Source: Balneolales bacterium
GTDB lineage: Bacteria > Bacteroidota > Rhodothermia > Balneolales > Natronogracilivirgulaceae
DNA length: 53,457 bases
Direction: 5' to 3'
NCBI GenBank assembly: GCA_007128425.1
Contig: SKXL01000072.1
Span: 1 to 53,457 of the forward strand
The notes beneath the pieces are model-generated. The model did not search any database. It worked only from the letters and a program-made list of their open reading frames with translations, and had not been told where the DNA came from. A program made the translations under genes and the position numbers. This document shows, in pieces, positions 12,227 through 33,567 of the stretch. How positions within the stretch are numbered: position 1 is the stretch's first letter; the number at the start of each line of letters is the position of its first letter.

Positions 12227-14245
12227 ATGGACGCATACGTTCATCTCGTACCCTGGATCGTTCTTATACCGCTGGCCGGGTTTCTGTTCAATGGCTTGCT
12301 TGGGCTCTCGTCCGAATCATTCCGGGCCATGAAGCCTCTTATCGGAGGGGTAGCGACTCTGGCCGTCTTTATTCCATTTCTGATTGCCGTTTGGCTGTTT
12401 TTTATGATGACAGGGGAGAGCGAAGCGGCAACGGTGAGCCTGTTTACATGGATCGAAGCCGGAAGTTTCAGTACGGACATCGGTTACCGTCTGGACCAGC
12501 TTTCCCTGCTCATGACACTTGTCGTGACCGGTGTCGGCGCGCTTATCCACTTCTATGCTATCGGCTACATGGCCGGAGATGAAGGTTTCTGGAAGTTCTT
12601 CTCTTTTATGAACCTGTTTATCTTTGCCATGCTCAATCTTGTACTGGCCGATAACATGCTCCTGCTGTTTCTCGGATGGGAGGGTGTCGGACTCTGCTCC
12701 TATCTGCTTATCGGCTATTGGTACGCTGATATGTCCAAATCCGATGCCGCTAAAAAGGCGTTTCTCTACAACAGGGTGGGTGATTTCGCTTTCCTTATCG
12801 CGTTGTTCATGATCTTTCAGGTCGTCGGCTCTCTGCGGTTTGAGGATATTCTGGCCGGAACCGCACTGTTCACCACCGACCAGGTTTTCCTGATCGGTTT
12901 GCTGATCCTCATAGGCGCCACCGGGAAAAGTGCCCAGATTCCGCTGTTTGTCTGGCTCCCGGATGCCATGGCCGGCCCCACACCCGTATCGGCCCTCATC
13001 CATGCCGCCACCATGGTTACCTCCGGCGTCTACGTGATCTCACGCTTGTCGCCGTTCTTCATGCAGTCGCCTGAACTGATGCTCATCGTTGCAGTTACAG
13101 GTGGATTTACAGCGGTCATCGCAGCCACTATCGCGCTTACAAAGTACGACATCAAGGCAGTTCTGGCCTACTCCACAGTTTCCCAGCTTGGGTTCATGTT
13201 CCTTGCACTTGGTACTGGAGCTTACGTCGCCGCCATGTTTCATGTGGTGACACACGCTTTTTTCAAAGCCTGTCTTTTTCTCGGATCCGGGTCGGTGATC
13301 CATGCCATGCATAACGTGGAGCACAAGCTGAATGAAGATCGAAAGCACGTCCATTTTGATCCGCAGGACATGCGCTTCATGGGTGGGCTGCGCAGGTACA
13401 TGCCTTCAACCTACAGAACGTTTCTCATCGCCACCATCGCCATTGCCGGCATACCACCACTGGCCGGATTTTTCTCAAAGGACGAAATCCTGGTGATGAC
13501 ATTCAATGCCGGTATGGGAGGCTTTGGCGCAGTTTACATTGGATTATGGGCGCTGGCACTCGTCACGGCATTCATGACCGCGTTCTACATGTTCCGGCTT
13601 ACACTGGGTATTTTTCACGGCGATTTTCGTCTTCCCAGAAAACTCAGCAAAGCCCAGGGTTATGAACAGCACCTGCATGAGAGCCCGTTTACCATGACTT
13701 CCGTTCTTTGGGTACTTGCGGGTCTCTCCATTCTCGGAGGCTTTATCGGTATTCCAAATTTTGTAGTGGCAACATTCACCGGCACGGCCGATGTTAATCT
13801 GCTTTCCAACTGGCTGGACAAGGTCACACTCGATGCCGATCTTATTCTCAGCAAACAGGTGGAATGGATGCTGCTCTTTGGATCCGTGCTGATTGCACTC
13901 GCAGGCGTATTCGTCGCTTTCCGGCTCTATGACAACAATGAACTGGAAGAACCCGACGCCGGCATTGCCGAGCGATTCGGAGCAATTTATCAGGTCTGGA
14001 GTGACAAGTACAAAGTTGACGAAATTTACGAAAGTCTCATCATTCGCCCGACCGTTCGCTTTTCCGATCGTGTACTCGCTGTATTCGACATGAAAGGTAT
14101 TGACGGATTCGTGAACGTCATCGCCTCGACCGTCCGGTTTGCCGGCAGTGTCGTCCGTTACTTCCAGACCGGACTGGTGCAGACCTATGCTTACGGTATT
14201 GTTCTTGGAGTCATCCTCGTCTTTTTCATGTTGCTGTTCCGATAA
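12227..14245 (+). CDS. nuoL: NADH-quinone oxidoreductase subunit L
   Basis: Distal antiporter-like proton pump subunit of complex I with 16 expected transmembrane helices and the long lateral helix (672 residues, normal). Key charged residues are present: Glu in FLGWEGVGLCSYLL, Lys in GATGKSAQIPLFVWLPDAMAG, the HAATM motif, Lys in HAFFKACLFLGSG, and Lys in AGFFSKDEIL. The C-terminal lateral helix and final anchor are in the last 170 residues or so. It is followed by nuoM after 9 bp. Confidence 0.96.
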   Translation: MDAYVHLVPWIVLIPLAGFLFNGLLGLSSESFRAMKPLIGGVATLAVFIPFLIAVWLFFMMTGESEAATVSLFTWIEAGSFSTDIGYRLDQLSLLMTLVVTGVGALIHFYAIGYMAGDEGFWKFFSFMNLFIFAMLNLVLADNMLLLFLGWEGVGLCSYLLIGYWYADMSKSDAAKKAFLYNRVGDFAFLIALFMIFQVVGSLRFEDILAGTALFTTDQVFLIGLLILIGATGKSAQIPLFVWLPDAMAGPTPVSALIHAATMVTSGVYVISRLSPFFMQSPELMLIVAVTGGFTAVIAATIALTKYDIKAVLAYSTVSQLGFMFLALGTGAYVAAMFHVVTHAFFKACLFLGSGSVIHAMHNVEHKLNEDRKHVHFDPQDMRFMGGLRRYMPSTYRTFLIATIAIAGIPPLAGFFSKDEILVMTFNAGMGGFGAVYIGLWALALVTAFMTAFYMFRLTLGIFHGDFRLPRKLSKAQGYEQHLHESPFTMTSVLWVLAGLSILGGFIGIPNFVVATFTGTADVNLLSNWLDKVTLDADLILSKQVEWMLLFGSVLIALAGVFVAFRLYDNNELEEPDAGIAERFGAIYQVWSDKYKVDEIYESLIIRPTVRFSDRVLAVFDMKGIDGFVNVIASTVRFAGSVVRYFQTGLVQTYAYGIVLGVILVFFMLLFR

Positions 14246-19135: not shown

Positions 19136-22100
19136 TTGAGAAAACGGATTCTCTTTCTGATTGTCGGATTGTGCCTCTGGGCGCACCCGGATCTGCAGGC
19201 ACAGATCTCATTGGAAAGAGAGCGACAGGTGCCTGCAGCCGGACAGGATTCGATTATCATCCTCGATCCCTGGATCATACCGGAAACATTCCATGTTTAT
19301 GCTGATACGGTATGGCTGGATGAAAACCAGTGGACACTGCATCCGGCAAAGGGAAGGTGGAGCTGGGATGTTTCAGCACCAGAACGAACCCGCTTCGACA
19401 CACTCCGTTTTAGGTACGAATACTGGCCCATCGACCTGCCTGCAACCATTTTTGAACGCCAGCTGGTAACCGTCGACATAACCGACGATCATTATGACCC
19501 GGACGGCGAAGTGCATGTTGCGCGCCGTCCGCTTCGTCAGCAGGAGCTGTTCGCCGATACCCGTCTTCAACGCAGCGGAAGCCTGAGACGGGGCTTTGTT
19601 GCAGGAACAAACCAGGACCTGTCCCTTGAGAGCGGACTCAATTTCGATATCAGTGGTCATATCACAGATGATATTGAAGTGGTTGCCTCACTTACCGACA
19701 GAAGCACACCCATCCAGCCTGATGGAACCACTCAAACACTCAGAGAATTTGACCAGGTCTATATCCGCCTGATGCACGAAATGGGGATGATGCAGATGGG
19801 GGATATTGATATCCGCCTGGACCAGAGCAACTTTGCTGTCATTGATCGCCGGTTGCAGGGAGTCGGATTGCAGGCAGATCTCAACCGGTATGGCAGTTAT
19901 GAGGGATCGGCAGCGGTGGTTCGCGGACAGTATCGGGAAATGCAATTCACAGGAGAGGATGGTGTTCAGGGTCCATACAGACTCAGCGGTTCCGACAATG
20001 AGCAGTTTATCATCGTGCTGGCCGGTTCCGAACGGGTTTATATCAATGGCCGGCGAATGACACGCGGAGAAGAGAACGACTACATAATCGATTACGGCCT
20101 GGGTGAAATCACATTTACATCCAATCGGATCATTACCGATCATTCCCGAATCACAGTGGACTTCCAGTACCTGCGTGATGCCTATACCCGCAGTGTGGTG
20201 GCAGCGGATGCGGAACATGATCACCTGCTAAACGGCCGTGTATCGTTCGGCGCTACGGTCATTCGTGAAGCCGACAATGTCAATCTGAGCACGCAACTTT
20301 TCCTGACGGAGCAGGAGCGTGAGGTGCTCAGACAGGCAGGCAATGACCCGCAGCTTGCCGTCATCAGCGGAGCAGATTCGGTCGGATTTCGACGTGATGC
20401 CGACTTCCTGCTTTACAGCAAAATCGACACCCTCTTTCAGGGTCAGGAGTTTGAAATATTCAAACATTTCCCCGGTGACTCTTCCGGAGTGTTCCGGGTG
20501 CAGTTCAGTCGTGTTCCGGACGGCGAAGGCGACTACCGAAGAGTCGGTCGCGCTGCAAATGGCATCCTCTACGAGTGGGCCGGACCAGGTATGGGCAACT
20601 ACATGCCACAGCGGCGGCTTTCCCGCCCATTGGAACAAAACATGATTGCATTGCGGAGCCGGGTAAAGGCCACCCCTAAGCTGAACCTTTACGGGGAGTG
20701 GGCAGGAAGTTATTTCGATCGCAACAGGCTCTCACCTGTCGGCAATGAAAACAACCAGGATTTAAGCTTTCTGGCCGGCGTGCAACTTGATCCCGTATCC
20801 ACTCGTCTCGGTATGGTTTCATTTGACCTCAAGGGACGCTATGAGGGAGAACATTTTGCCTATTTCGACCGTGTTCGCGAAGTGGAATTTGATCGCCGGT
20901 GGAATCTGATGCACATGGAAGAATCAAGAGAAGAGCGGCTGGAAGGCACTGCCGGCTGGGCCCCCACCGGCAATACCAGGCTGGATATCGGAGCCGGCGG
21001 AATACAGCGGCAGGGGTTCCAGGGTGTGCGAGGCGATGTCCATTTCGTTTCCAGGGAAGAGGGTCTGCCCGGATTGGACTATTTCATTGAACGAATAGAA
21101 AGCGAAGACCGTAATTTCGGTGAAAACGGGGCCTGGTTACGCCAGAGTGGACGGGTTGACTACGATATATCGTTGCCGATCGGAAATCTGCAGCCCGAAT
21201 TTGAGTTTGAACACGAAGATCGGCTGCAAAAAGACAGAGAAGCCGATTCGTTGATGGCAGGATCGCTGCAGTTTGTTGAAATTGGCCCGGGATTGTACTA
21301 CCTGTTGTCGGATCGCTTTCGTGTAGGCAGCACGATACGCTATCGGAAAGACCGTGGCATCCTGAATGGCCGTCTTGCTGACGAATCAAGAGGAATCACC
21401 CAGCGGTATATCCTGGATTATCGCCACAGCTCGCTGTTTCAGACCCGTAATACCGTAGGCTTGCGTCAGCGTCAATTCGAAGAGATATTCCGGATAGATC
21501 AACAGCGACTTGACAGCAGGGGAGTATTGTTGAGATCGGTAACCGACTATCGCCCATGGAACAGATTTATTGAAACACAATTTCTATACGATGCCAATAC
21601 AGAACGGCGGCCATTGCTCCAGGAAGCCTTTATCGAGGTAGGACCCGAGTTGGGTCAGTATGTCTGGATTGATCTGAATGATGACGGTGTGCAACAGGTC
21701 GATGAGTTCTTCCCTGAACAGGGTCCGAACGAAGGTACGTTCATCAAGCAGCTGGTACCGTCTGAAGAGCTTTTCCCGGTAATTGCATTGCGAGCACGCT
21801 GGCGGACGACGGTGAATCCCGAGCAGATCATTGATCCCTTTGACGCCAGATACTCCAGATGGCTCGATTTTCTCTCCGGAATACGGTGGCATTCGCTTGT
21901 TGATATCCGCGAGGAAAATAGAACCGGACAGCTTGAAGATATCTATCTGATGCGCCTGAACAAGTTTCGGGATGACTCACTCACTATCAACGGTCGTCTC
22001 TTTATTGAGCAGGATATTGAGTTTTTTCGCAATAATACCCGCCGGGAACTCAGGATTACAGCCGATCGCTTGCGCTCTAAGCAGCGCCAGGCCAGTGGCC

Positions 22101-22642
22101 TGGAACATCGCAGCTCGGAAAATTTTCAGGTACGGGCAGGCAGTCGAATTTCTCGCCGTTACCGTATAATGGTCCTGGCACTTATTGGCCGAAATGAAAA
22201 CCAGAGTGAAACATTTGCGTCCCGTAATTATACCATCAGCGGTGGTGAAGTAAGACCCAGACTTGATATTCGCTGGAGCCAGAGATTACAATCGGGTGCC
22301 GGTTTTTCCCTGCTGAACAAATCCGACCATTTTGCGGAGGATCCGGCACGAGTCCGCGGATTGACTCTGCGGACGGATTCGAGAATGACTATCGGACGTC
22401 GCCTTCAGGCATCGGTTCGGCTCGAAAGACGCAGCTACAGCCTGTCAGGAGGCCCATCAACCAGTATGGGCGAATTTGAGTTGACGGATGGTGCCGGAAT
22501 TGGCCAAACATGGGCCTGGTCTCTTCAATCTGATTACCGTATTAGCGACTTTTTGAGGGCAAGCCTGCAGTATGACGGACGTACGGTTCCAGCAAGACCT
22601 GCCATCCAAACGCTTCGTTTCACCGTCAATGCTGTGTTTTAA
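19136..22642 (+). CDS. Large outer-membrane/surface protein of the FCB group
   Basis: A 1168-residue exported protein with no firm family name. The start is TTG at 19136, the only one that gives the full signal peptide MRKRILFLIVGLCLWAHPDLQA, with cleavage before QISLE. The middle contains GTNQDLSLESGLNFDISG, then IEVVASLTDRSTPIQPDG and LREFDQVYIRLMHE (about residues 156-216), a block I associate with large cell-surface proteins of Bacteroidota and relatives, including parts of SprA. YINGRRMTRGEENDYIIDYGLGEITFT looks like a beta-sandwich repeat. The second half consists of amphipathic beta strands with frequent Arg/Tyr ends and closes on a strand ending VNAVF, as expected for a barrel. It is far shorter than SprA (about 2,400 residues), so it is a relative at best. 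It has its own unit after the rplI terminator. Confidence 0.72.
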   Translation: MRKRILFLIVGLCLWAHPDLQAQISLERERQVPAAGQDSIIILDPWIIPETFHVYADTVWLDENQWTLHPAKGRWSWDVSAPERTRFDTLRFRYEYWPIDLPATIFERQLVTVDITDDHYDPDGEVHVARRPLRQQELFADTRLQRSGSLRRGFVAGTNQDLSLESGLNFDISGHITDDIEVVASLTDRSTPIQPDGTTQTLREFDQVYIRLMHEMGMMQMGDIDIRLDQSNFAVIDRRLQGVGLQADLNRYGSYEGSAAVVRGQYREMQFTGEDGVQGPYRLSGSDNEQFIIVLAGSERVYINGRRMTRGEENDYIIDYGLGEITFTSNRIITDHSRITVDFQYLRDAYTRSVVAADAEHDHLLNGRVSFGATVIREADNVNLSTQLFLTEQEREVLRQAGNDPQLAVISGADSVGFRRDADFLLYSKIDTLFQGQEFEIFKHFPGDSSGVFRVQFSRVPDGEGDYRRVGRAANGILYEWAGPGMGNYMPQRRLSRPLEQNMIALRSRVKATPKLNLYGEWAGSYFDRNRLSPVGNENNQDLSFLAGVQLDPVSTRLGMVSFDLKGRYEGEHFAYFDRVREVEFDRRWNLMHMEESREERLEGTAGWAPTGNTRLDIGAGGIQRQGFQGVRGDVHFVSREEGLPGLDYFIERIESEDRNFGENGAWLRQSGRVDYDISLPIGNLQPEFEFEHEDRLQKDREADSLMAGSLQFVEIGPGLYYLLSDRFRVGSTIRYRKDRGILNGRLADESRGITQRYILDYRHSSLFQTRNTVGLRQRQFEEIFRIDQQRLDSRGVLLRSVTDYRPWNRFIETQFLYDANTERRPLLQEAFIEVGPELGQYVWIDLNDDGVQQVDEFFPEQGPNEGTFIKQLVPSEELFPVIALRARWRTTVNPEQIIDPFDARYSRWLDFLSGIRWHSLVDIREENRTGQLEDIYLMRLNKFRDDSLTINGRLFIEQDIEFFRNNTRRELRITADRLRSKQRQASGLEHRSSENFQVRAGSRISRRYRIMVLALIGRNENQSETFASRNYTISGGEVRPRLDIRWSQRLQSGAGFSLLNKSDHFAEDPARVRGLTLRTDSRMTIGRRLQASVRLERRSYSLSGGPSTSMGEFELTDGAGIGQTWAWSLQSDYRISDFLRASLQYDGRTVPARPAIQTLRFTVNAVF

Positions 22643-26248: not shown

Positions 26249-28375
26249 ATGGCTAAGAAAAAAGACCCCTCTACAGATACGTACGAACCCAGGAAAAAAG
26301 AAGAGAAAAATCCACGATTTCCTGTCTGGATTTACCTGATACTTTTTCTTGTACTCCTTGCCGTTCCCTACCTGTCCGTATTTCCGGACGGTACCAAAAA
26401 ACTCACATACAGCGAGTTTTTGGATCATGTGAGAATGGGGCACATTGAGCGTATCACTATCATAGACGGCAAAACAATTGAAGGTTTTTTTCTGGAAGAT
26501 GCGGTAAAGGAGGGTCACATCACCTTTGAAGAACCATCCGGACCCAGGTGGTTTGAGTCAGACGATGAAGACAAAAAAGCGACCTACCCGTTTAGTCTGA
26601 CCATGATTGAGGGCGATGACATCAGGCCGCTGCTCGATGAGTACAATGTAGCCTACGATGCGCGCATAAGTGGAAACTGGTTTAGTAACGTATTCATATG
26701 GTTTATCCCTCTACTGCTTATTATAGCCTTCTGGTTATTCATATTCCGGAGAATGAATCCCGGTTCGCAGCTCATGAACATCAGTAAAAACAAGGCGTCG
26801 CTCTATGACCGTCAAAGTGAGCACAAAATCACCTTCAGGGATGTAGCCGGCCTTGAAGAAGCAAAGGAAGAAGTGGAGGAGATCGTCGCCTTTCTTAAAG
26901 ATCCAAAGAAATTCACCAGGCTGGGGGGGAATATTCCAAAAGGAGTTCTTTTGGTCGGTCCGCCGGGCACAGGAAAAACCATGCTGGGTAAAGCCACCGC
27001 TGGTGAAGCTGATGTTCCGTTTTTCAGCCTCAGCGGTTCCGACTTTGTCGAAATGTTTGTAGGTGTAGGTGCCTCGAGGGTTCGCGATCTTTTCAAGCAG
27101 GCCAAGGAAAAAGCTCCCTGTATTATTTTTATTGATGAAATCGACGCCATTGGTCGCAGCCGGGGTAAAAACCAGGTAACAGGCTCCAACGATGAACGCG
27201 AAAACACATTGAATCAACTCCTTTCTGAAATGGACGGGTTCAACACAGAGAAGGGGGTTATCATCATGGCGGCTACCAATCGACCGGATGTTCTTGACTC
27301 TGCGTTGATGCGCCCGGGAAGATTCGATCGGCAGATTCTTATCGATAAACCCGATTTGAAGGGCAGAGTGGAGGTGCTTCAGGTCCATACCAAAAAACTG
27401 AAAGTAAATGACAATGTGGATCTTCACCTGCTGGCATCGCAGACACCGGGTTTTGCCGGAGCGGAACTTGCCAACATGTGTAACGAAGCCGCTTTGCTGG
27501 CATCACGGCGCAACAAAGATGCAGTGGAAATGATTGATTTTCAGGATGCCATCGAACGCGTTGTGGCCGGTCTGGAAAAGAAAAATAAAATTATAAGTCC
27601 GAATGAGCGTGAAATAATTGCCTATCACGAGGCGGGTCACGCCATCGTTGGCTGGTACCTGGAACATACGGATCCGGTCATGAAAGTTAGTATCGTGCCA
27701 AGAGGATTTGCGGCACTTGGATACACCCTCCAGACGCCGCTCGAAGATCGCTTTCTGATGACAACCGAAGAACTCGATGATAAAATATGCGCGCTGCTGG
27801 GCGGACGCGTATCAGAAGAAATCATATTTGGAAAAATTTCAACCGGTGCCCGCAACGATCTTGAACGTATATCGACACTGGCCTATGCCATGGTTACCGA
27901 ATATGGCATGAGCAATGAACTTGGCAACATCTCTTACCATGATCCTGCAGCGGAAGACGGGGGGTTCTCTTTCCAGAAAAAATTCTCCGAGCATACGGCA
28001 GAGCGAATAGATGGAGCTGTTCAGGCTATCATCAAAAGAAATTACGATCGGACAAAAATATTGCTTCTTGAGAAAAAAGACAAGCTCGTCACCCTATCAA
28101 AAGCACTGCTGCATAAAGAGATCCTGGGTTCTCATGACCTTTTGACGCTTCTGGGTGAACGTCCGTATGGCAACTATCCTGTGAATTTATCATCTCCGGA
28201 GGCACGTAAAGAGGGTCAGGATTCGTTAAACGAAACGGAAGGATCAGCACTCACGGAAGATGAACCGTTTAAGCAGAACCACAAAGCAGAAGCAGCACCA
28301 GATGGTTCGGTAACGAGAAGTAATCTGAAAGAAAATCAGAAGCTGAATCAGAAAGGTCAGGATCATGATTTTTAG
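26249..28375 (+). CDS. ftsH: ATP-dependent zinc metalloprotease FtsH
   Basis: Membrane-anchored AAA+ protease that degrades misassembled membrane proteins and some cytoplasmic regulators. The 708-residue protein has transmembrane helices at about 26-44 and 148-166 with a periplasmic domain between. The ATPase has Walker A GPPGTGKT at 237-244, Walker [17 protein letters not shown], and the second region of homology ([22 protein letters not shown]). The zinc motif is HEAGH at 460-464, and a distal Asp is expected in the ARNDLERIS segment. The last 70 residues are a polar, low-complexity tail. All catalytic residues are intact. Confidence 0.97.
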
Positions 28376-28458: not shown

Positions 28459-28878
28459 GTGGTTTACGTCACTCGAAAAGAACATTTCACAGCAGCTCAC
28501 CGGCTTCATAATCCGGACAAGAACCCGGAGTGGAACCAGGCAACATTCGGACCATGCAACCATCCCAACTGGCATGGTCACAACTAAGTGATCGAAGTGA
28601 CAGTTGCCGGACAGCCTGATCCGGAAACCGGATATGTAGTGGATTTGGGAAAACTGAAAAAAGTGATACAGCATCGTATATTGTCCAAATGCGATCACCG
28701 CAACCTCAATCTGGACGTTGATTTTTTGGAAGGTGTAATTCCTTCTGCAGAAAATCTGGCAAAAAACTTTTTTCACGAGCTGAAGGATGATGTAGCGGCA
28801 ATCTGCAAAACCGGTTCGCTGCATTGCGTCAAAGTCTTTGAAACGGAAAGGAACATAGCCGAATACAGAGAAGCGTAA
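28459..28878 (+). pseudogene. 6-pyruvoyltetrahydropterin synthase gene interrupted by an in-frame TAA
   Basis: Read in one frame from GTG 28459, the sequence gives 42 residues, TAA at 28585-28587, then 96 residues to the stop at 28876-28878. Both halves are well-preserved PTPS. Before the stop, His14, Cys33, His39 and His41 match the zinc ligands and catalytic Cys of rat PTPS (His23, Cys42, His48, His50) at a constant offset of nine; the motif is CNHPNWHGHN, with five residues between Cys and HGH. After the stop, Asp79 and His80 match Asp88 and His89. The TAA replaces the Tyr expected in HGHNY, one base from TAC or TAT. No frameshift or decay is seen. Options are a recent nonsense mutation, a sequence error, or readthrough. 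Restart at GTG 28588 would make only the C-terminal part. The start could also be the preceding ATT; a TAA at 28450 limits it. folE2 follows by 21 bp. Confidence 0.88.
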
Positions 28879-28899: not shown

Positions 28900-29799
28900 A
28901 TGATTACCACGACACTCAAACGTTTTTACGATCCAACTTTTACTGTATCAGAGGAATACAAGAGCTCACTTCCTGATTTGCAGAATGGACCTGCTTCACT
29001 CATTGAGGGAGCAAACGTTCCCATTCAACAGGTTGGCATCTCGAATTTCCGCCTTCCACTAAAATACGAGACTCGTGACGGACAGCAGATTACACTGGAA
29101 ACATCGGTTGATGGTTATGTCAGCCTTGATGCAGGGAAAAAAGGCATTAATATGAGTCGGATTATCCGCACCTTCTATGAATTCCGAGATGAAGTGATCT
29201 CACAGGATGTGCTGGAATATATTTTACGTGCATACCGTGATAACCTCGGCAGCAGGGAGAGTTATCTCAGACTTCATGTGAACTTTCCCATGATTCAGGA
29301 GAGTTTGCGATCCGATCTGAGCGGTTATCAATACTATCCGCTTTCCATTGAAGGTCACATGGACCAGAATGGGAGGATGAAGATGTTCATGCACATCGAT
29401 TTCGAGTACAGCAGCGCCTGCCCCTGTTCATTCGAATTGGCGGAGCATGCACGCAACGCGCGTGATGTTGCCGCAATTTCGCACAGTCAGCGAAGTCTTG
29501 CCAATGTAACGGTGGAATGCTCGGAATTCCTGCATCCGGAAACCCTGGTCGACATGATGCGCAATGCGCTTACGACAGAGACCCAGGTCATGGTAAAGCG
29601 GGAAGACGAACAGGCCTTTGCAGAGCTGAATGGCGCTTACCAGAAGTTTGTGGAAGATGCCGCCCGTCTTGTCTATGATGAGTTGAATAAACGCAGTGAG
29701 ATCGTCGATTTTGTCGTGCGGTGCAATCACATGGAAAGCTTGCACAGCCATGATGCCGTCAGCCGCATCTGCAAGGGCGTGCCTGGCGGGCTTCGGTGA
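28900..29799 (+). CDS. folE2: GTP cyclohydrolase FolE2 (type IB)
   Basis: Converts GTP to 7,8-dihydroneopterin triphosphate, the first step to folate, biopterin and queuosine, using a metal that can be other than zinc. The 299-residue protein matches the FolE2 family: VPIQQVGISNFRLPL, SVDGYVSLDAGKKGINMSRI, the metal-binding Cys of the SSACPCSFELAEHA segment, ISHSQRS, and the end motif FVVRCNHMESLHSHDAVSR. It begins 21 bp after the PTPS gene and supplies that enzyme's substrate, so the two form a pterin unit. It converges on kgd with only six bases between, leaving no room for a terminator. Confidence 0.95.
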   Translation: MITTTLKRFYDPTFTVSEEYKSSLPDLQNGPASLIEGANVPIQQVGISNFRLPLKYETRDGQQITLETSVDGYVSLDAGKKGINMSRIIRTFYEFRDEVISQDVLEYILRAYRDNLGSRESYLRLHVNFPMIQESLRSDLSGYQYYPLSIEGHMDQNGRMKMFMHIDFEYSSACPCSFELAEHARNARDVAAISHSQRSLANVTVECSEFLHPETLVDMMRNALTTETQVMVKREDEQAFAELNGAYQKFVEDAARLVYDELNKRSEIVDFVVRCNHMESLHSHDAVSRICKGVPGGLR

Positions 29800-29805
29800 A
29801 ATATC

Positions 29806-32800
29806 TTACAACCCGAGTGCTTCTCGAACAAGCAGGTCCTGTTCTGCAGCATGAATTTGGGCCGAACCGGTAGCCGGTGATGCCGAGGCAACACGACCGG
29901 CATATTTCAGTGTCCGCTTGTCACCAGCCAGCTCCTCAAAACGGGATCGCATAAAGTTCCAGCCACCCATGTTTTGGGGTTCTTCCTGACACCAGACGAG
30001 CTCTTTTGCATTGCCGTATGCTTCCAGCACATTGTTAATGCTTTCATCAGCAAATGGGTAAAATTGTTCAATTCGAACCAGTGCCACATCCTCCAACTCC
30101 TCCTTCTCACGCATTTCAAGCAAGTCGTAGTACACCTTGCCGGAGCAAAATATGACTCGGTCGACCGAGTTTTTATTCGTAATCGAATCATCATCAAGAA
30201 CCTCATGAAATGCGCCATTGGCAAGTTCCTCTATACTGGAAACCACCTTGCTGTGACGTAACAGGCTTTTTGGGGTCATAATAATCAGAGGCTTTTTGCT
30301 AATGCGCAGTGCCTGTCTGCGCAGAATGTGATAGAATTGCGCAGATGTGGTGCAGTTTACCACCTGTATATTGTTATCGGCGCTAAGCTGCAGAAAGCGT
30401 TCAAGACGCGCCGATGAGTGTTCCGGCCCCTGTCCTTCATAACCATGCGGAAGAAGCATGACAATACCGCTGGTCTGCCGCCATTTTGATTCGCTTGCGG
30501 CGATATACTGATCAATAATGATTTGGGCACCGTTGCTGAAATCACCGAATTGTGCCTCCCATAGCACCAGCGCATCCGGTCGCAGACTGCTGTAGCCGAA
30601 TTCAAATCCCAGTACCGCAAATTCACTCAGCAGACTATTGTAGATCCGGAACTTAGCCTGATCTTCCCCCAGATTGTTGAGCGGCACAAAAACCTGTCCT
30701 TTACTTGTACCGTGAAGCACAGCGTGCCTGTGCGAGAATGTTCCACGTTCAGTATCTTGTCCGGTTATTCGGATCGGATGTTTCTCCGTAAGCAAACTGC
30801 CAAATGCCAGTGCCTCGGCAAAACCCCAGTCAATCTTTTTCAAATTCTTTTCGACAATCTCGCAGCGTTTGGCAAGAATGCGAAGTAACTTTGGATTTGC
30901 GTCAAAATCCTGTGGCAGTGTATTCAGCTTATGACCGATTTGCTTCAACTTGTCGATATCGAAACGGGTTTCCGGTAGATGCTTGGACCAGTCTTTTTGA
31001 GAAAGATCCTTTCGTTTGAGATGGTCGCTGCTTACCTGTCCGATGCTGCCGGCTTTTTTTGCATCCTTGAATGCCGCTTGCAGCAATTGATCAAATTCGT
31101 CAAAGATCTGTTGCACTTCTTTCTTGGTAAACTCGCCACGCATGACAAGTTCTCGTGTATAACGTTCACGAACACTTGGGTGATCATGAATCTCTTTGTA
31201 AAGTCCGGGTTGTGTGAATGCCGGCTCGTCCCCTTCGTTGTGCCCATGCTTTCGATAACAGATTAGATCTATAACAACATCCTTGCCAAATTTTTGACGG
31301 TAATCCAAAGCCAGCTTTATACTTTGGATAGCCGCTTCCGGCTCATCACCGTTGACATGAAAGATCGGTGCCAGTATCATCTTCCCGAGATCAGATGCAT
31401 ATTCGGTAGACCGGCAGTCCTTCGGCAGTGTTGTAAAACCGATCTGGTTGTTTATGATCAGGTGGATTGTTCCACCCGTTTTAAATCCGTCAAGCTGTGA
31501 CATATTCAGGGTCTCGGCGACCACGCCCTGCCCGGCAAATGCGGCGTCCCCATGTATCAGAAGAGGAATCACTTTTTCCGCGGCTTTTTTCCTTCCCAAT
31601 CTGTCCTGCAGAGCCCGAGCTGCACCTTCAACCACTGGATTTACCGATTCCAGGTGGCTGGGGTTTGGCATCAATAGCAAATTGATCTCCTTGTCTTCAC
31701 CGGTTTTATGTACCGCAGTGGTACCAAGATGGTACTTGACATCACCTGTACCCTGGGCACTTTCCGGATCAATGCTGCCTTCAAATTCGGCAAATACCTT
31801 TTTATAGGATTTGCCCATGGTATTGACCAGAACATTAAGACGACCACGATGTGCCATTCCAAGAACCACATCGGTAATATCGTAGCTGCTCGCTCTTTCA
31901 AGCAGATAATCGATCATCGGAATGAGGGTATCGGCACCCTCGAGTGAAAAGCGTTTGTGACCGATATATTTTTTATGCAGAAACTCTTCAAAGGCACTGG
32001 CCTGATTCAGCTTGTGAAGGATCTGCTTTTTTTCCTCCTTGGTAAGTTCCGGATCGTTAGTTGTGGACTCCATGGTGTCGCGCAGCCAGCCACGCTCCTC
32101 AATATCAAGAATGTGGGTGTACTCCGATCCGATGTATCCGCAATATGTTTTGCGCAGGATATCAATGACATTTCGAAGCGAGGTGACCCGGTCGGATCCT
32201 CCCAGATAAGGGACATAGAACTTTCGATCCAGATCCCACATCGTAAGACCATGGTAGTGAAAATCAAGCTCGGGGTTATATCCTGTGCCGAACTGTAGTG
32301 GATTGAGCTCCGCCATTACATGTCCATGTCTGCGGTATCGGTCAACCAGGCGGCTTACAGCTACGGCCTTCTTGTCAGACTCGACACGGTCGGAACCACC
32401 ATCCAGAAAACCGGTGTATTGATCTTCGCCAAAAGGAATAGGCTCATAGGGAATATTGAGTTCCTCGAAAATCGATTCAAAAAAATCGGTAGGGCCGGCC
32501 AGGTACTCCTGAATGCGTGCCAGAAAAGATCCGGATTCTGCCCCCTGTATAATACGATGGTCATAGGTGCATGTGACATTCATCACCCTGCTGATTCCCA
32601 GATGACTCAGCAGCTCCTGGGACATTGACTGAAACTCCGCCGGAAAATTCATCGCTCCGGTTGCAATGATTGCACCCTGACCTTTCATCAGGCGTGGCAT
32701 GGAAGAAACCGTGCCAATCGTGCCAGGATTTGTGATCGTGATGGTGGTATTCTCGAAATCACCTACCTCCAACTTGCCGTTTCGCGCCCGTCCGATCAGA

Positions 32801-33567
32801 TCCATAAAAGCATTCAGGAATTCATCGAAGGTCATTTTGTCAACACCCTTTATGTTGGGAACCACCAGGGTGCGGGATCCATCCTTGTTGGGAAGATCAA
32901 TTGCAATCCCCAGATTGACAGATTTTGGAATGACCTTTGCAGGTTTGCCGTCTTTCTCCCCAAAGTGGTAGTTGAGCTGGGGGTACTCGCCAAGGGCCCT
33001 TACAACAGCCCAGGCTATGAAATGGGTCAGTGTCGCTTTTGGCTGAAGTCGCTTCTCCAGATAGCTGTTGATTATGCGCCGGTCCTCCATGAGCATTTTG
33101 ACCGGAATGACTCGAAGGGAGGTGGCTGTCGGCACCTCCAGACTCGACTCCATGTTGGTGGCCAATTTACCCGCAACACCTTTCAGTGGCTTGTACTCAA
33201 AGAGCGATTCTTTTTCCTCTTCATCAGATGTATCAGCCGTTTTGGGATCAATTTTGCCGTCGGTCTTTATTTTGGGCTTTGTTTCTGGCGGTTTATCAGC
33301 TGTTTTATCAAATTCCTTTTCCTGTTTCTTCTCACGGGCTGCAATTTTTTCATCCCTGTTTGCCGAATCAGCCTTTTCCTCTGCGGGCGATTCCGGTTTT
33401 CTCTTATGGTCCGGTTTGACAGCTTTTTCTGAAGGCGCGCCATTGCCCATCTCGTCAAAATACTGACGCCAGTAATCAGGTACCGATTCCGGATTTTCGA
33501 GGTATTGGTCGTAGAGTTCTTCTACCAGAGCTGCGTTTGGACCGAATTGTGCTTCTATCTGCTTCAA
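29806..33567 (-). CDS. kgd: Fused 2-oxoglutarate dehydrogenase E1 with E2-like acyltransferase domain (Kgd/OdhA type)
   Basis: TCA-cycle enzyme acting on 2-oxoglutarate. The 1253-residue protein begins with the E1 docking segment (FGPNAALVEELYDQYLENP, residues 8-26). A Lys/Glu-rich linker covers about 45-120. An E2 acyltransferase domain follows at about 140-360 with the catalytic DHRIIQGAESG at 336-346. The thiamine-diphosphate E1 core runs from about 400 (RYRRHGHVMAELNPL, then HGDAAFAGQGVVAETLNMS and INNQIGFTT). No lipoyl domain is present. This order is that of mycobacterial Kgd and corynebacterial OdhA. The start is TTG at 33567: an in-frame TGA lies eight codons upstream and the first ATG would remove the docking segment. 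Confidence 0.94.
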   Translation of the reverse strand: MKQIEAQFGPNAALVEELYDQYLENPESVPDYWRQYFDEMGNGAPSEKAVKPDHKRKPESPAEEKADSANRDEKIAAREKKQEKEFDKTADKPPETKPKIKTDGKIDPKTADTSDEEEKESLFEYKPLKGVAGKLATNMESSLEVPTATSLRVIPVKMLMEDRRIINSYLEKRLQPKATLTHFIAWAVVRALGEYPQLNYHFGEKDGKPAKVIPKSVNLGIAIDLPNKDGSRTLVVPNIKGVDKMTFDEFLNAFMDLIGRARNGKLEVGDFENTTITITNPGTIGTVSSMPRLMKGQGAIIATGAMNFPAEFQSMSQELLSHLGISRVMNVTCTYDHRIIQGAESGSFLARIQEYLAGPTDFFESIFEELNIPYEPIPFGEDQYTGFLDGGSDRVESDKKAVAVSRLVDRYRRHGHVMAELNPLQFGTGYNPELDFHYHGLTMWDLDRKFYVPYLGGSDRVTSLRNVIDILRKTYCGYIGSEYTHILDIEERGWLRDTMESTTNDPELTKEEKKQILHKLNQASAFEEFLHKKYIGHKRFSLEGADTLIPMIDYLLERASSYDITDVVLGMAHRGRLNVLVNTMGKSYKKVFAEFEGSIDPESAQGTGDVKYHLGTTAVHKTGEDKEINLLLMPNPSHLESVNPVVEGAARALQDRLGRKKAAEKVIPLLIHGDAAFAGQGVVAETLNMSQLDGFKTGGTIHLIINNQIGFTTLPKDCRSTEYASDLGKMILAPIFHVNGDEPEAAIQSIKLALDYRQKFGKDVVIDLICYRKHGHNEGDEPAFTQPGLYKEIHDHPSVRERYTRELVMRGEFTKKEVQQIFDEFDQLLQAAFKDAKKAGSIGQVSSDHLKRKDLSQKDWSKHLPETRFDIDKLKQIGHKLNTLPQDFDANPKLLRILAKRCEIVEKNLKKIDWGFAEALAFGSLLTEKHPIRITGQDTERGTFSHRHAVLHGTSKGQVFVPLNNLGEDQAKFRIYNSLLSEFAVLGFEFGYSSLRPDALVLWEAQFGDFSNGAQIIIDQYIAASESKWRQTSGIVMLLPHGYEGQGPEHSSARLERFLQLSADNNIQVVNCTTSAQFYHILRRQALRISKKPLIIMTPKSLLRHSKVVSSIEELANGAFHEVLDDDSITNKNSVDRVIFCSGKVYYDLLEMREKEELEDVALVRIEQFYPFADESINNVLEAYGNAKELVWCQEEPQNMGGWNFMRSRFEELAGDKRTLKYAGRVASASPATGSAQIHAAEQDLLVREALGL

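Follow-up and report, generated by a model that had tools for sequence, protein, structure and literature searches.

In a Balneolales genome, an otherwise ordinary gene for a 6-pyruvoyltetrahydropterin synthase of the PTPS-II type has probably been interrupted by a just-arisen nonsense mutation, perhaps at the level of the strain. The gene lies at positions 28459-28878 on the plus strand of the window, the whole stretch of 53,457 nucleotides that was analysed, which is one contig (C177) of a draft assembly of 2.93 Mb in 263 contigs. The named genomes nearest to this assembly are Balneolales genomes assembled from metagenomes. An in-frame TAA (28585-28587, plus strand) replaces a Tyr codon that is invariant in the relatives. 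Four explanations had been offered by a first-pass annotation of this DNA: a just-arisen nonsense mutation, an assembly error at one base, programmed readthrough, and an enzyme made in two pieces, the second of which restarts at the adjacent GTG. The first two fit all of the data, and each is an ordinary, known kind of event; the other two are disfavoured.

Identity of the interrupted frame

The frame opens with a GTG at 28459, a start that is common to the relatives, and closes with a TAA at 28876-28878. Its translation (VVYVTRKEHF...HPNWHGHN*VIEV...EYREA*) contains a single internal stop. When this TAA is read as Tyr, the PTPS Pfam family (PF01242) matches residues 4-138 as a full-length domain with a score of 123.5 bits, and a whole-genome search gives the locus 118.9 bits and flags one TAA inside it. 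The two parts are recognised separately as well, against a Pfam cut-off of 22.4 bits. The N-terminal fragment of 42 codons (28459-28584, plus strand), which carries the zinc ligands H14, H39, and H41 and the catalytic Cys33, scores 23.3 bits alone, and the remaining 96 codons (28588-28878, plus strand), with the catalytic D79-H80 and E128, score 84 bits alone. The match that assigns the predicted product to PTPS is far beyond chance.

Among solved structures, those of animal-type PTPS match best (1b66, E 8.5e-31). In the alignment to 1b66, the zinc His triad (H14/H39/H41), the catalytic C33/D79/H80, and E128, which corresponds to the substrate-anchoring Glu, are all present. Once it is taken into account that the PDB chain is without its first four residues, H14, C33, H39, H41, D79, and H80 are each nine lower than what we take to be the rat numbers. 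Thus, the earlier description of a complete PTPS gene with one in-frame TAA, whose zinc and catalytic residues keep a constant offset of nine from the rat enzyme, holds.

Within COG0720, the motif CxxxxxHGH defines subfamily PTPS-II, the biopterin-type enzyme (PMC5041015), and it is present here as C33-NHPNW-HGH. In this motif, and in its zinc and catalytic residues, the frame is like the known PTPS-II enzymes, such as those of rat (1b66) and cyanobacteria; it has the full-length domain and the anchoring residue of the subfamily and lacks only the uninterrupted reading frame, given the TAA after HGHN. Identity as PTPS-I (QueD; CxxxHGH) or as PTPS-III (folate; ExxHGH) was rejected on the Cys-x5-HGH spacing and on the P found at the Glu position of ExxHGH. 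QueD shares the fold family but is a separate gene, with its own Cys-HGH spacing and a role in the queuosine pathway.

The affected codon in relatives

A survey of the order found an orthologue in 112 of 129 genomes. The stop is present in one of these, the present genome, and in none of the 111 others. Every one of the 58 loci read in relatives has a Tyr codon at the affected position. These loci form two overlapping sets: 29 genome loci (TAT in 19, TAC in 10) and 29 contig loci (TAC in 15, TAT in 14), with 51 more distant contig loci falling outside the motif used for parsing. G003, at 93% protein identity the nearest relative, has TAT at this codon, from which TAA is reached by one transversion. 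Comparison with the orthologues therefore bears out the claim that the stop sits directly after HGHN, at the usual Tyr site and one base from a Tyr codon.

No orthologue was found in several relatives whose genomes are at least 90% complete (for example, G023, G026, and G029), which indicates that the PTPS-II gene can be lost. G001, which belongs to the same genus, also lacks this gene, but the end of ftsH finds no match there either, which points to a gap in that assembly.

Constraint on the frame and age of the change

The part of the gene that follows the stop is under normal constraint. Relative to G003, its dN is 0.046 and its dS 0.76, a ratio of about 0.06, which is comparable to that of ftsH (dN 0.033, dS 0.46) and of the other neighbours. 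Furthermore, the numbers of nonsynonymous differences to genus outgroups are the same in the present genome and in G003 (16 vs 16, 16 vs 16, and 17 vs 17), and because these distances are near equal, decay has barely begun. Both results support the earlier statement that nothing else in the gene is decayed. As a rough estimate, no more than some 5% of the time since the divergence from G003 can have passed without constraint; had the gene been released for even a modest fraction of it, many extra replacements would be expected. Consequently, any loss of PTPS-II must be very recent. The stop is very recent, or unreal, or not a stop in effect.

Consequences of a loss of PTPS-II

If the mutation is real, one very recent base change would have made TAA out of the Tyr codon that is invariant after HGHN, and translation would end after 42 residues. 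The product would be an inactive fragment, cut off before the catalytic Asp-His and the Glu that binds the substrate, and dihydroneopterin triphosphate would no longer be converted to 6-pyruvoyltetrahydropterin. Such a mutation may be fixed, or it may be a strain-level variant that was captured by the assembly. We infer both the loss of activity and the reality of the TAA base.

A count of PTPS and QueD copies elsewhere in the genome gives a single copy of PTPS-II in the assembly and an intact QueD on contig C132, which has the CxxxHGH motif. A second, intact PTPS-II copy was considered as a backup and rejected, there being none in the assembly. An intact FolB is found on contig C129. Of the GTP cyclohydrolase I-type genes, the assembly yielded folE2 alone, and no FolE (PF01227) was detected in it. 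Folate synthesis (FolE2, FolB) and queuosine synthesis (FolE2, QueD) are independent of PTPS-II. Given these known pathways and the intact FolE2, FolB, and QueD, loss of PTPS-II need not break either one, and the idea that a dependence on folate would make the loss lethal is not supported, FolB being present. With these three genes intact, no aromatic amino acid hydroxylase (phenylalanine-hydroxylase family, PF00351) found in the genome, and relatives at least 90% complete that are without the orthologue, a loss of PTPS-II looks tolerable. However, the gene is kept across most of the order, and its loss is not obviously free.

The missing PF00351 match is also a difference from the known PTPS-II enzymes. 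It stands as a separate observation that PTPS-II and FolE2 have been kept as neighbours, yet this hydroxylase was not found in the present genome.

Weighing the explanations

The nonsense mutation has parallels among recent bacterial pseudogenes that carry a single nonsense substitution: in both cases one such change strikes a constrained, single-copy gene in one genome only, and the inactivating change is absent from intact relatives. The present case differs in that the TAA is known from an assembly consensus, where a base error is possible. The assembly is a draft of metagenome type (263 contigs, 90.8% complete), and a single wrong base in its consensus would mean that the living organism still has its Tyr codon and makes a functional enzyme. 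Such an error would also predict exactly what is seen in the rest of the gene, which is intact and constrained and has no second decayed feature. On the other hand, substitution errors in short-read consensus are rare, and a comparison of relatives' ORFs with 134 orthologous segments of the same assembly (137 kb, window included) found, gene ends aside, no further internal stop in a sense frame; each internal-stop match that it returned was either an antisense shadow or located ahead of the start codon. This comparison is imperfect, as it picked an antisense shadow at the PTPS locus itself, and a few interruptions could be missed. In a codon-composition scan for other interrupted genes, over 361 kb, the top candidates that were inspected looked like antisense shadows or ordinary junctions between neighbouring genes, and the PTPS stop itself was not listed. 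The lack of other internal stops in the 137 kb makes gross sequence error unlikely. An isolated one-base error is the main rival, and we give it a substantial though lesser share of the probability.

The constraint observed after the stop would also be predicted if the TAA were read through, by programming or by suppression, to give a full-length PTPS-II as a low-level or regulated product. The stop, however, is found in none of the 111 relatives with an orthologue, and TAA is a normal terminator in this genome: in the stretches covered, it closes 61 of the 178 long ORFs. The 27 tRNAs detected, an incomplete set, contain a normal tRNA-Tyr (GTA) and none that would act as an ochre suppressor. 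Over the 93 bases that follow the stop, folding is no stronger than in shuffled sequences (z 0.00), and UAA followed by G is not known as a leaky context. Recoded stops are expected to be conserved in relatives or to come with a dedicated tRNA or signal, and neither is seen here. Readthrough is accordingly very improbable, and there is scarcely any chance that this lineage reads the single PTPS-II UAA as an amino acid and thereby makes a low level of full-length enzyme with an ochre codon beside its active site. A split enzyme, whose second chain would restart at the GTG and assemble with the first, is also highly doubtful. The GTG does lie directly after the TAA and opens 96 codons, but relatives with an intact gene (L004, L010, and L011) have the same GTG as an ordinary Val codon, and so it is not an adaptation. 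Furthermore, the split would place the zinc ligands and the catalytic Asp-His on different chains, and a split form is seen in no relative. Taken together, readthrough and the split enzyme have a probability well below one in ten.

Should the base be real, a bacterial pterin gene has been caught at the first step of its loss, in a group that mostly keeps the enzyme. If it is an error, it is a reminder to ask for read support before an isolated internal stop in a draft metagenome assembly is given a biological reading. Neither outcome would much surprise a specialist.

Neighbouring genes and other observations

The order ftsH-ptpS-folE2 is conserved in relatives of the genus. Upstream, ftsH (26249-28375, plus strand) is intact, with Pfam matches to M41, AAA, and FtsH_ext and with orthologues in the relatives' loci. 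Downstream, folE2, encoding GTP cyclohydrolase IB (28900-29799, plus strand; NCBIfam NF010200, 273 bits against a cut-off of 215), is also intact and begins 21 bases after the PTPS frame, close behind it as had been noted.

Elsewhere in the window, a 2-oxoglutarate dehydrogenase E1 (29806-33567, minus strand) has an E2 catalytic domain, that of the 2-oxoacid dehydrogenase acyltransferases, fused close to its N terminus, an arrangement known from the actinobacterial KGD-type enzymes. An ORF of 1168 amino acids (19136-22642, plus strand) is conserved at 71-78% identity in the bacterial family and has no Pfam match at 1e-5. On another contig of the same genome (C114), a gene at 12455-13933 of locus L170 (minus strand) seems to be missing about 170 residues in frame relative to its counterparts of about 670-685 amino acids in two relatives from the family, G013 and G017. 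There, two tblastn segments lie end to end in one frame, whereas query residues from about 342 to 514 are passed over; either a domain has truly been lost or a repeat has been collapsed.
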